From Bradyrhizobium viridifuturi (GTDB lineage: Bacteria > Pseudomonadota > Alphaproteobacteria > Rhizobiales > Xanthobacteraceae): DNA of 64,000 nt. A program made the position numbers and the translations under genes. Where the stretch lies: assembly GCF_001238275.1 (NCBI RefSeq), contig NZ_LGTB01000009.1:124001-188000 (forward strand). Direction: 5' to 3'. Under the pieces are notes generated by a model. That model did no database searches. It was not told where the DNA came from and saw only the letters and a list, made by a program, of their open reading frames with translations. This document shows, one piece after another, positions 17,272 through 21,567 of this stretch; position 1 is the first letter of the stretch; each line of letters begins with the position of its first letter.

Positions 17272-18618
17272 TTACCGTGTCCCCGGCACCGCGGCATCCG
17301 CGGCCGGCTGGGTCCGGCCGCCGCCGCGCATCCGCGCCAGCAGCTCCGCGGTCGGCCAGGAATCCGCGGGCAGGCCGTACTTCATCTGCATCGCCTTCAC
17401 CGCGCTGCGGCTCGCCTGGCCGAGCACGCCGTCGATCTTGCCGACATCATAGCCGGCGCGCGCCAACAGCCCCTGCAGCTCCTTGATCTCGCCAAACGGC
17501 AGTTGCGCGACCGGCGCGTGCGGTCGCTGCATCGGCGGCGCGCCCGCAATGCGGCCGGCGAGATAGCCGGCGGTGGTGGAATAGATCAGCGAATTGTTCC
17601 ACTCGGTATAGGCGGCGAAATTCGGATAGGCGAGAAACGCCGGACCCATCCGGCCCATCGGCAACAGCAGCGAGGCCGGCATCTCGTCATTCGGCAGCGC
17701 CTTGCCGTCGGTCAGGGCGACGCCGAGCGCCGCCCATTTCGAACGCGGCAGCTTGATGGTGAGGTCGGCCTGGTCCCACGGAAAATTCGTGGCCTGCGGC
17801 ACGCGCACCTCCTGCAGCCACGGCTCGCCGCGGCGCCACTTCAATCCGTTGGCGATGTAGTTCGCGGTCGAGCCGATCACGTCGGGACCGCTCGCGAGCA
17901 GGTTGCGATGGCCATCGCCGTCATAGTCGACGGCATAGTTGAAATAGTGCGTCGGCAAAAATTGCGTCTGGCCGAGCTCGCCGGCCCACGAGCCGATCAT
18001 CTCTTCGGGCGAAAGATCGCCGCGCTCGATGATCTTCAGCGCCGCGATGGTCTCGCCCTGGAACATCTCCGAGCGGCGGCAGTCATAGGCCAGCGACACC
18101 AGCGATTTCAGCGTCGGCAGATTGCCCATCTGGGCGCCGAAGTCGCTCTCCAGCCCCCAGAACGCGGCGATCACAGCCGGCGGCACGCCGTACTCCTTCT
18201 CGGCGCGGGCGAACGCGGCCGCATAGGTCCGGATGTACTGCTGGCCCTGCTGCATGCGGTAGTTGGCGGCCATGCGGCCGGCGAACTGGGTGAAGATCTG
18301 GCCGAACACGCGCTGGCCGCGGTCGCGGTTCACGATGCCCTGGTCGTAGACCAGATAGGGTGCGGCCTCCGCGATCGTGCGCTGCGAGACGCCGGCGGCG
18401 ACTGCCTTCTGCTTCAGCTCGGCGAGGAAGCGATCGAAGTTCTGCCCGTTGTGGCAGGACGCAGCCCGCGGCGAGGCCACTGCGGCCGGGCGAGCCCTCG
18501 CCGGGGCCGGTCCCGCAGGGCTCGGCAGCAGCTGCTGCGCCTGACCAGGCGAGGTGAGCGCCAGCGCTCCCGCGATCGCTGCGATCATGATCGGGGCGCG
18601 GAGGGGAGATGCTGGCAT
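17272..18618 (-). CDS. lytic murein transglycosylase, MltB type, with peptidoglycan-binding domain
   Basis: A 448-residue secreted enzyme starting MPASPLRAPIMIAAIAGALA, with a signal peptide cleaved near GQAQQ. The catalytic Glu is in AAFWGLESDFGAQMG, followed by MltB-type motifs AGELGQTQFLPTHYFNYAVD and YDGDGHRNL. The C-terminus (about 370-425) is a peptidoglycan-binding domain 1: EIKELQGLLARAGYDVGKID. It would cleave glycan strands in the periplasm to 1,6-anhydromuropeptides. A second start 12 codons upstream is possible. It is divergent from the sensor kinase gene. Confidence 0.9.
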   Translation of the reverse strand: MPASPLRAPIMIAAIAGALALTSPGQAQQLLPSPAGPAPARARPAAVASPRAASCHNGQNFDRFLAELKQKAVAAGVSQRTIAEAAPYLVYDQGIVNRDRGQRVFGQIFTQFAGRMAANYRMQQGQQYIRTYAAAFARAEKEYGVPPAVIAAFWGLESDFGAQMGNLPTLKSLVSLAYDCRRSEMFQGETIAALKIIERGDLSPEEMIGSWAGELGQTQFLPTHYFNYAVDYDGDGHRNLLASGPDVIGSTANYIANGLKWRRGEPWLQEVRVPQATNFPWDQADLTIKLPRSKWAALGVALTDGKALPNDEMPASLLLPMGRMGPAFLAYPNFAAYTEWNNSLIYSTTAGYLAGRIAGAPPMQRPHAPVAQLPFGEIKELQGLLARAGYDVGKIDGVLGQASRSAVKAMQMKYGLPADSWPTAELLARMRGGGRTQPAADAAVPGTR

Positions 18619-18803
18619 CGATGTCACCGGCTGAGAAAGGAGAAAATGGCCCAAACTGCATACACCAGGGCGACACCGGGCAACAACGGGGGTGCTGGCC
18701 TTAGACCAATTGAGCTTCGGCAGGCTGAGTCGCCGCCGCTATGATCGGGCCAAGTGATTCGCGGGCAGGGGAGTCGGCGGATCGATCACGCCCGGAGGGA
18801 CCC

Positions 18804-20459
18804 ATGTGGAGTTTTCTCGAGCGTCTGTTGGATTCGTCGACGTTTTCGCCACACGGCATTTGCCTGTTGTGGGAACCGGAGCTGATCTGGCTCCACGTGA
18901 TTTCAGACGCCATCATTGCCGCTTCGTATTTCTCGATTCCGTTTGCGCTCGCAATCCTCGTCTCCAAGCGGCGCGACTTCCAGTTCGGCTGGATGGCCTG
19001 GCCGTTCGCCGCCTTCATCCTCGCCTGCGGCCTCACCCATGTGTTCTCGATCTACACGCTGTGGGTGCCGATCTACGGCCTCGAGGGCCTGCTCAAGGCA
19101 CTCACCGCGATCGCCTCGATCATCACCGCGGTGCTGCTGTGGCCGCTGATCCCGAAGATATTGGCGATCCCGAGCGAGCAACAGCTGCGCGAGGCGCATG
19201 TCGCGCTCGCCGAGGAGGGACGACAGCGCCAGCGCTCGGAATTCCTGCTCGAGCGGTTCCGCGAAGCCGAGGCGAATGAGAGCAAGATCCGCCAGGCGCA
19301 GAAGATGGAAGCGGTCGGCCAGCTCACCGGCGGCATCGCGCACGACTTCAACAACATTCTCACCGTCATTACCGGCACCATCGACATTCTCGCCGAGGCG
19401 GTGACCCACAATCGCCAGCTCACCGAGATCACCGGCCTGATCCGCGACGCCGCCGATCGCGGCGCCTCGCTGACGCGGCATCTGCTGGCGTTCGCGCGCA
19501 AGCAACCGCTGCAGCCGAGCGACGTCGACGTCAACGCGCTGATGGTCGATACCATCGAGCTGCTGCGGCCGACTATCGGCGACCATGTCGACATCGATTT
19601 TCGCCCGATGCCCGACCTGCCGCGCGCGCTGGTCGATGCCAACCAGCTCGTCACCGCGATCATTAATCTCGCGCTGAACGCACGCGACGCGATGCCGAAG
19701 GGCGGCCGGCTGCGGATCGAGACCCGCACCGCCGAGTTCAAGCCGTCTGACGTGCACGGCCATGACGGGCTCGCCGCCGGTGACTATGTCGCGGTCGCGT
19801 TGACCGACAACGGCCAGGGCATCGCCGAAGCCGATCTGGCAAAAGTGTTCGAGCCGTTCTTCACCACCAAGGACGTCGGCAAGGGCACAGGCCTCGGGCT
19901 CAGCATGGTCTACGGCTTCGTCAAGCAGTCCAACGGCCACATCGTGCTCGACAGCGAGCTCGGCCGCGGCACCAGGGTCATGCTGTTCCTGCCGCGTGCG
20001 GCGACAGTCTCGCCGGCTGCGGCGCCGCCCGAGCGGCGGCAGCCGGAGGCGCGCGGTGCGCAGGAGATCGTGCTGGTCGTCGAGGACGACAAGCTTGTGC
20101 GCTCCTACGTGCTGACCCAGATCGAGAGCCTGGGCTACACCACGCTGTCGGCCAACAATGGCGACGAAGCGCTCGCGGTGCTCGACAGCGGCGCGCCGGT
20201 CGATCTCCTGTTCACCGACGTCATCATGCCCGGCGCGATGAACGGGCGCGACCTCGCCACCGAGGCGAAGCGGAGACGCCCCGGCCTGCGCGTGCTGTTC
20301 ACATCGGGCTACACCGATGATGCCATCGACCAGGACGGCAAGCTCGAGCAGGGCATCCTGTTCCTCGGAAAGCCCTACAGCCGGGCCCAGCTCGCCCGCA
20401 TGCTGCGCGTTGCGCTGCGCGAGAAGGAGGTGCGGCTCGCGCAGGAGCCGGCGGAGTAG
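18804..20459 (+). CDS. hybrid sensor histidine kinase with ethylene-receptor-like N-terminal domain
   Basis: A 551-residue membrane sensor. The start is the ATG at 18804 behind GGAGGGA. Residues 30-115 form three membrane helices that align without gaps, at an offset of ten, with the ethylene-binding domain of plant ETR1: Asp35, Tyr42, Ile45, Pro46, Cys75 and His79 match ETR1 D25, Y32, I35, P36, C65 and H69. Cys and His are the copper ligands in ETR1. A coiled linker leads to a HisKA domain (phospho-acceptor His180 in [13 protein letters not shown]) and an HATPase domain, then a receiver domain with LFTDVIMPG. There is no GAF domain, unlike ETR1. The output target is unknown, and no separate regulator gene is adjacent. 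Confidence 0.85.
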
Positions 20460-20634: not shown

Positions 20635-21567
20635 ATGAACTATTTTCGCACCGCGCTCCTGCTTGCCGGCCTCACTGCGCTGTTCATGGGCGTCGGCTAT
20701 CTGATCGGCGGCGGCACCGGCGCCGTGATCGCGCTGCTCGTCGCGGCTGCGACAAACCTGTTCACCTACTGGAACTCCGATCGCATGGTGCTGTCGATGT
20801 ACGGCGCCCACCAGGTCGATGCGCGTTCGGCGCCGGACCTTTACAATCTCGTTGCCGAGCTCGCGCAGCGCGCGAGCTTGCCGATGCCGCGTGTGTTCGT
20901 GATGGACGAGGCGCAGCCCAATGCGTTCGCGACCGGCCGCAATCCGGAGAACGCGGCGGTCGCCGTCACCACAGGCCTGATGCAGCAGCTCAGCCGCGAG
21001 GAGCTCGCCGGCGTGATCGCGCACGAGCTCGCGCATATCAAGCATCACGACACGCTGACCATGACGATCACGGCGACGATCGCCGGTGCGATCTCGATGT
21101 TGGCGCAATTCGGCATGTTCTTCGGCGGCAACCGCAACAACAATGGCCCCGGCATCATCGGCTCGATCGCGATGATGATCTTGGCGCCGCTCGGCGCCAT
21201 GCTGGTGCAGATGGCGATCAGCCGCACCCGCGAATACGCCGCCGACAATTATGGTGCGCGCATCGTCGGCCAGCCGATGTGGCTGGCGTCCGCGCTCGCC
21301 AAGATCGAGAATTCGGCGCATCAGGTGCCGAACATGGAGGCCGAGCGCAATCCCGCCACCGCGCATATGTTCATCATCAATCCGCTGTCGGGCCACGGCG
21401 TCGACAATCTGTTCGCCACCCACCCCTCGACCGCCAACCGGATCGCAGCGCTCCAGCAGCTCGCCGCCGAGCTCGGCACCCAGGCCGCGCCGCGTAACAC
21501 CGGCGCGACCTATCCGCCGCGCAGCCCGTGGGGCGGATCGTCGGGCCAGCGCGGGCCGTGGGGTTAG
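20635..21567 (+). CDS. htpX: membrane zinc protease HtpX
   Basis: A 310-residue M48B protease starting [20 protein letters not shown]. Zinc ligands lie in HELAH (130-134) and the downstream Glu in RTREYAADN. Two N-terminal and two central membrane segments are visible, with [19 protein letters not shown] typical of HtpX. It degrades damaged inner-membrane proteins and is usually stress induced. The C-terminal 30 residues are Pro/Gly-rich. A second, more divergent M48 protease lies at 57090, so this genome segment has two. Confidence 0.92.

Follow-up and report, generated by a model that had tools for sequence, protein, structure and literature searches.

The window, the whole stretch of 64,000 nucleotides of Bradyrhizobium viridifuturi DNA that was analysed, carries a hybrid histidine kinase gene at 18804-20459. 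Its product is called the window kinase here, and the window type comprises this protein and its close relatives with an intact site. The gene, its neighbours and the features used below are as follows (window positions).

17272-18654, minus strand: divergent neighbour, lytic transglycosylase (SLT_2 and PG_binding_1 domains)
18794-18799, plus strand: GGAGGG, probable ribosome-binding site, four bases before the ATG at 18804
18804-20459, plus strand: hybrid histidine kinase gene, 551 amino acids plus stop, with domain order ETR1_N, HisKA, HATPase_c, Response_reg
18879-19169, plus strand: ETR1_N domain (Pfam PF25487), residues 26-122
18906-18941, plus strand: helix-1 site residues D35 (18906-18908), Y42 (18927-18929), I45 and P46 (18936-18941)
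19017-19040, plus strand: helix-2 site residues I72 (19017-19019) and the predicted copper ligands C75 (19026-19028) and H79 (19038-19040)
19095-19097, plus strand: K98 of helix 3, counterpart of ETR1 K91 and proposed salt-bridge partner of D35
19317-19505, plus strand: HisKA dimerisation and phosphoacceptor domain (Pfam), residues 172-234, with H180 at 19341-19343
19635-19997, plus strand: HATPase_c catalytic domain (Pfam), residues 278-398, with N292 and D335 intact
20070-20405, plus strand: Response_reg receiver (Pfam), residues 423-534, with phosphoacceptor D472 (20217-20219) and K523 (20370-20372)
20635-21567, plus strand: downstream neighbour htpX, zinc metalloprotease HtpX, 175 bases past the kinase stop codon

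The N-terminal domain of the window kinase was matched to ETR1_N (PF25487) in Pfam with 128.1 bits against a gathering cut-off of 27 (E 1.6e-37); Pfam gave no GAF domain (E up to 0.01) and no PAS domain between sensor and kinase. The initial annotation, by which a histidine kinase and then a receiver follow the sensor without a GAF domain, was thus borne out by the domain order. The catalytic residues H180, N292 and D335 and the receiver residues D472 and K523 were all present. Translation probably starts at ATG 18804; a longer frame from 18741 is less likely, since the match to orthologues begins at residue 1. AlphaFold modelled the sensor domain weakly (pLDDT 63.7, pTM 0.41), with helices at residues 25-55, 62-84 and 91-120 and C75 and H79 on helix 2, and a PDB sequence search with this domain (E up to 1) returned no match. 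Promoter and terminator scanning gave counts near those of shuffled sequence (1 against a mean of 0.3; 2 against 1.1).

Relatives were collected by a full-length protein search over 265 genomes of the genus, which yielded 25 orthologues of 86-100% identity (the window gene being one of them) plus a further four proteins at 64-69%. The transglycosylase adjoined the kinase gene in 24 of the 25 orthologues (window included; the 25th is at a contig end) and htpX followed it in 22 (window included), while the four more distant relatives had neither gene within about 1.5 kb. When htpX was searched for in 20 chosen genomes, 14 had the gene, three of these with the kinase upstream; in the 11 with no adjoining kinase the transglycosylase lay within about 650 bases of htpX in eight and did not in three, and the eight imply that the kinase gene entered or left a defined site. 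One orthologue genome (G063, L176:7225-9590) had opposite-strand genes in the place of htpX after the kinase, the largest being a frame of 570 amino acids that by eye resembles a carbamoyltransferase. The seven neighbours scanned, the transglycosylase and HtpX among them, included no linked response regulator, no ethylene-related gene and no copper-handling gene.

The ethylene-type site: conservation and distribution

The sensor domain was aligned with the N-terminal sequence of plant ETR1. The seven ETR1 binding residues D25, Y32, I35, P36, I62, C65 and H69 correspond to D35, Y42, I45, P46, I72, C75 and H79, all of which are present, and K98 and S105 of helix 3 likewise match ETR1 (K91 and S98). 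D35, Y42, I45, P46, C75 and H79 had been named correctly in the initial annotation, and I72 (ETR1 I62) is the seventh essential residue. The gap-free alignment at a constant offset of ten that it had described held from helix 1 through H79 but not for helix 3, which is offset by seven (K91 to K98, S98 to S105), so that a three-residue gap lies between H79 and K98. C65, H69, I35, P36 and I62 are among the essential ETR1 residues and D25 is near the copper (PMC6586836), and the conserved Asp may form a salt bridge to the conserved Lys, its change to Asn cutting affinity about 100-fold (PMC13012798).

The seven site residues and K98 were kept in all 29 window-type proteins (the window kinase and 28 others at 64% full-length identity or more), and H180, N292, D335, D428, D472 and K523 were kept in 29 of 29. 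This statement rests on the 29 best matches, unfiltered, since the alignment set of window-type sequences (set W) had been pre-filtered on the site string. Conservation of C75 and H79 among close relatives, on which the initial annotation had staked its case, was complete at this level of identity and failed in the related group II described below, where H79 was kept in 2 of 67 copies. Over the 300 pairs of the 25 orthologues the median dN/dS of the sensor domain was 0.092 (0.093 over the 296 pairs with dS 0.1-1), and a stretch of 230 kinase residues gave 0.139, again over 300 pairs; the sensor domain is under purifying selection among these orthologues, and Y42, I45, P46 and I72 are as invariant in them as C75 and H79. 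Judged by its E-value, by a site string identical to that of AzoEtr1 (see below) and by purifying selection, the sensor match is not one of chance, and the intact ethylene-type copper site on a hybrid kinase that had been proposed is supported by all seven residues and the Pfam domains.

A family profile search across the genus, suggested earlier, found ETR1_N in 181 of the 265 genomes among the best matches listed; in the family sample, own-genus genomes included, it was present in 30 of 149 genomes and 13 of 47 genera. The search of named genomes yielded at least 80 loci, mostly kinase-only relatives because four of its six peptide patterns lay in the kinase and one in the receiver, and the closest named full-length relative among the matches listed was Bradyrhizobium sp. 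LTSP885 (88%). C75 and H79 were unconserved in some distant copies in other genera. Three loci in other genera of the family (L227, L229 and L230) had the seven ethylene residues without the helix-3 Lys, in open frames of 213-233 amino acids. An intact-site ETR1_N protein in which HisKA leads straight to a receiver without HATPase_c was seen in five genomes, in frames of 364-396 amino acids (L303:158-1345, L304:505-1653, L305:146-1306, L306:184-1362 and L307:310-1401); this class was assigned by Pfam for one of the five (L029, the gene of L307) and by eye for the other four, and these short proteins would be ethylene-type sensors without a catalytic domain of their own.

The genome of the window (G000; 8.81 Mb, 152 contigs) gave a full-length NodA match of 317 bits and a second copy split over two frames (the two at G000:C5:120169-120753 and G000:C89:4103-4683), a marginal third match, and an ACC deaminase at 587 bits against a cut-off of 392. 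The full-length NodA match and ACC deaminase agree with the initial view of the host as a probable plant symbiont, and ACC deaminase, which was over the cut-off in 232 of the 265 genomes, is near-universal in the genus and so says nothing specific about symbiosis. NodA was found in 139 of the 265 genomes. Of the 25 genomes with a window-type receptor 16 had it, as did 123 of the other 240 (Fisher p 0.29); the figures for carriers and non-carriers were 98 of 181 and 41 of 84 for any ETR1_N (p 0.43), 84 of 147 and 55 of 118 for an ETR1_N of intact score (p 0.11), and 23 of 52 and 116 of 213 for group II (p 0.22), all p values being uncorrected for relatedness. The argument that the receptor is meaningful because ethylene limits nodulation thus found no backing across the genus (p 0.11-0.43), and its use as a marker of nodulators was rejected, there being no significant association with NodA in the 265 genomes. 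Instead of a gene for nodulation, the receptor appears to be a trait that goes with living in soil or close to plants in general.

Group II, a related clade without the site

Group II is the name given here to the clade of ETR1_N hybrid kinases with the kinases nearest to the window kinase. The set comprised at least 67 copies in 50 genomes (L035, L113-L142, L172 and most of L243-L278); some genomes of low score, G099 and G263 among them, were left unclassed. Three ETR1_N genes were found in the window's own genome: the window gene, L001 (ETR1_N-PAS-HisKA-HATPase, site intact) and a group II copy (L003/L113, G000:C99), which is frame-broken between kinase and receiver close to a contig end and may be an assembly error or a pseudogene. 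Group II proteins were 50-57% identical to the window kinase over the full length (kinase 56-62%, sensor 28-52%) and had the same domain order without PAS in the members scanned; in four genomes whose neighbouring genes were checked (L186-L189), neither the transglycosylase nor htpX adjoined the gene, unlike in the window. Two group II kinases stood in tandem at G095:C1:3802293-3805690 and at G170:C158:34455-37875.

Residues were counted on 149 of 182 aligned rows, the 33 left out being partial or duplicate pieces, other kinases and the ETR1 sequence; comparison set P (53 rows) had been selected by its H31-D35-Y42 residues, which leaves the remaining columns as the informative ones. Of 98 rows in which the kinase reached 55% identity across more than 240 residues, 96 belonged to set W or group II, and the other two were partial duplicates of W genes. 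None of the 67 group II copies kept Y42 (Phe in 64), P46 (Ala in 63) or I72, and the copper ligand H79 was kept in two (Arg in 63); C75 was kept in 53, and D35 and K98 together in 55. All 67 copies had the kinase residues H180, N292 and D335 intact, and 66 also had intact receiver residues. The median sensor dN/dS was 0.356 in group II (55 copies, 1401 pairs), below one but above the 0.093 of the window type and the 0.105 of the PAS type. ETR1_N scores of the three members tested (L114, L003 and L270) were 60.8-69.0 bits, above the Pfam cut-off, so the ETR1_N label alone does not predict ethylene binding, and the same architecture without the site implies that this type of kinase is useful without ethylene.

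In a kinase-only tree (65 rows: 13 W, 28 group II and 24 P; quick method with a long-branch warning) group II formed a single clade (SH-aLRT 99) and shared a starred clade with the window type, to which the other intact-site receptors did not belong. In a sensor-domain tree (60 rows, site columns removed, 16 of the 55 D35-keeping group II copies taken) group II was again one clade (100/100); unlike in the kinase tree, PAS-type receptors were nearer to it than the window's own clade (8 rows), which was excluded from a starred group (98/89) made up of PAS-type rows, group II and three further window-type rows, and a sensor tree forced to join the window type and group II was not rejected (AU p 0.295). 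Group II is a separate, derived lineage, for which one loss of the site is the simplest reading, and sensor domains may have been exchanged in the past of the window lineage. Group II looks like a case of repurposing under relaxed constraint rather than of decay. That an ethylene-receptor domain was turned once, within one bacterial genus, into a sensor for something else is an evenly balanced proposition; if true, window-type and group II receptors would form a natural matched pair, one reading ethylene and one not, and the near-invariant Arg of group II would mark a new ligand or a copper-free signalling state.

Two further ideas were rejected. Group II as a necessary partner of the window type was discarded, as G000 alone of the 29 window-type genomes has a copy, which is frame-broken. 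Covariation as proof of the D35-K98 pair was also set aside: in group II both residues were kept in 55 copies and both changed in 12, never one alone, but the 12 are not independent events, and L227, L229 and L230 keep the seven site residues without the Lys.

Interpretation and comparison with known systems

With domain order, a complete site, selection on that site, intact kinase and receiver residues and a conserved gene position established, the window kinase is probably a hybrid histidine kinase that sits in the membrane and acts as a receptor for ethylene by means of Cu(I). For copper and ethylene binding, the direction of the response, relay partners and target genes, we infer the following by analogy. 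Three predicted transmembrane helices would dimerise, C75 and H79 would hold Cu(I), and ethylene would bind the copper in a pocket lined by Y42, I45, P46 and I72. The D35-K98 pair would couple binding to a helix movement, which would run through a helical linker from near residue 125 straight into the kinase and alter autophosphorylation of H180. Ethylene would most likely lower this autophosphorylation, because ethylene binding lowers the activity of plant ETR1 (PMC7700396). Phosphate would pass from H180 to D472 in the protein's own receiver, on to a histidine phosphotransfer protein, for which the ChpT type is a guess, and then to an unlinked response regulator.

The copper site could be real and the signal another one, either the copper(I) supply or a different copper-binding molecule (CO, acetylene, another alkene). 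Such signals could use these very copper ligands, the receptor is not significantly commoner in NodA-positive genomes, where plant ethylene might matter most, and the downstream gene in 22 of 25 orthologues, htpX, encodes an envelope-stress protease. We regard this as unlikely, because Y42, I45, P46 and I72, whose ETR1 counterparts are essential for ethylene binding and are not among the copper ligands named in PMC6586836 and PMC13012798, are as invariant as C75 and H79 in the 25 orthologues, because AzoEtr1 with the identical site string is described as binding ethylene (PMC11819568), and because the seven neighbours scanned included no copper-handling gene. The 67 site-less group II copies with their intact kinase residues lend some colour to the view that the domain is a ligand-free membrane anchor and dimerisation unit and that some other input drives the kinase, which may be the case in group II itself; for the window type this is very improbable, since the site is intact in 29 of 29 proteins, the sensor dN/dS is about a quarter of that of group II (0.093 against 0.356), and a ligand-free anchor would hardly retain seven such residues. 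It is scarcely credible that this strain carries a non-functional gene, whether in decay or recently mobile: an open frame, intact catalytic residues and purifying selection speak against this, as does the gene's constant place beside the transglycosylase (24 of 25 orthologues) and htpX (22 of 25), although the eight of 11 kinase-less htpX genomes with the transglycosylase beside htpX point to insertion or deletion there.

Since the strongly predicted receptor occurs in a lineage that has nodulation genes, one can now test if bacteria of nodules perceive ethylene, the hormone that limits their formation. Group II, whose members carry the ETR1_N label and have lost the site, offers a natural control for such work and a caution against reading the label as ethylene binding. 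In the sources consulted, receptor-based ethylene perception has been shown in few bacteria, namely cyanobacteria and Azospirillum (PMC11819568; PMC10452086), and ethylene-binding domains with diverse outputs have already been predicted in many proteobacteria (PMC7700396; PMC11819568). Bacterial ethylene receptors are thus already known and the window kinase would be a further, predicted one; the site-swapped group II is the less expected part. In the limited open-access literature searched (titles and abstract starts) no publication on this receptor or on any Bradyrhizobium ethylene receptor was found.

Among known proteins, the kinase part was most like the CckA/PRK13557 type (NF010076, 396.5 bits; PDB 5idj, E 1.6e-46), in a match that starts after the sensor domain and does not reach the NCBIfam cut-offs of 631 and 1000 bits; by the NCBIfam equivalog the window kinase is not CckA (352.2 and 284.1 bits against 1000). 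Plant ETR1 (Arabidopsis) has a three-helix domain, as is predicted for the window kinase, and shares with it all seven binding residues, at 37% identity to the window sensor over 94 residues, and the order of kinase and then receiver. The window kinase is unlike ETR1 in having no GAF domain, a helix 3 shifted by three residues and H31 in place of an ETR1 Gln. SynEtr1 (slr1212, Synechocystis) is also a bacterial sensor kinase with an N-terminal ethylene-binding domain; the phytochrome-like part given for it in PMC10452086 is absent from the window kinase, the two being likened by description.

The AzoEtr1 gene was found by protein search in an unannotated plasmid record of Azospirillum brasilense Sp7 (L193:5001-6578, 525 amino acids), where by eye an RF3-like gene precedes it and a response regulator gene overlaps it. 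The same setting is described for it in PMC11819568, and this and the sequence match identified the gene as that of AzoEtr1, whose residues 1-130 bind 14C-ethylene according to the same source, in a plant-associated alphaproteobacterium. AzoEtr1 carries a PAS domain between sensor and kinase and lacks a built-in receiver, its overlapping response regulator being separate, whereas the window kinase has a fused receiver and no PAS, and the kinases are 33% identical over 219 alignable residues. The sensors are 54% identical over residues 1-135, both proteins are alphaproteobacterial histidine kinases of the membrane (by prediction for the window kinase), and the site string H-D-Y-I-P-I-C-T-H-K-S, which includes K98 and S105, is identical in the two.
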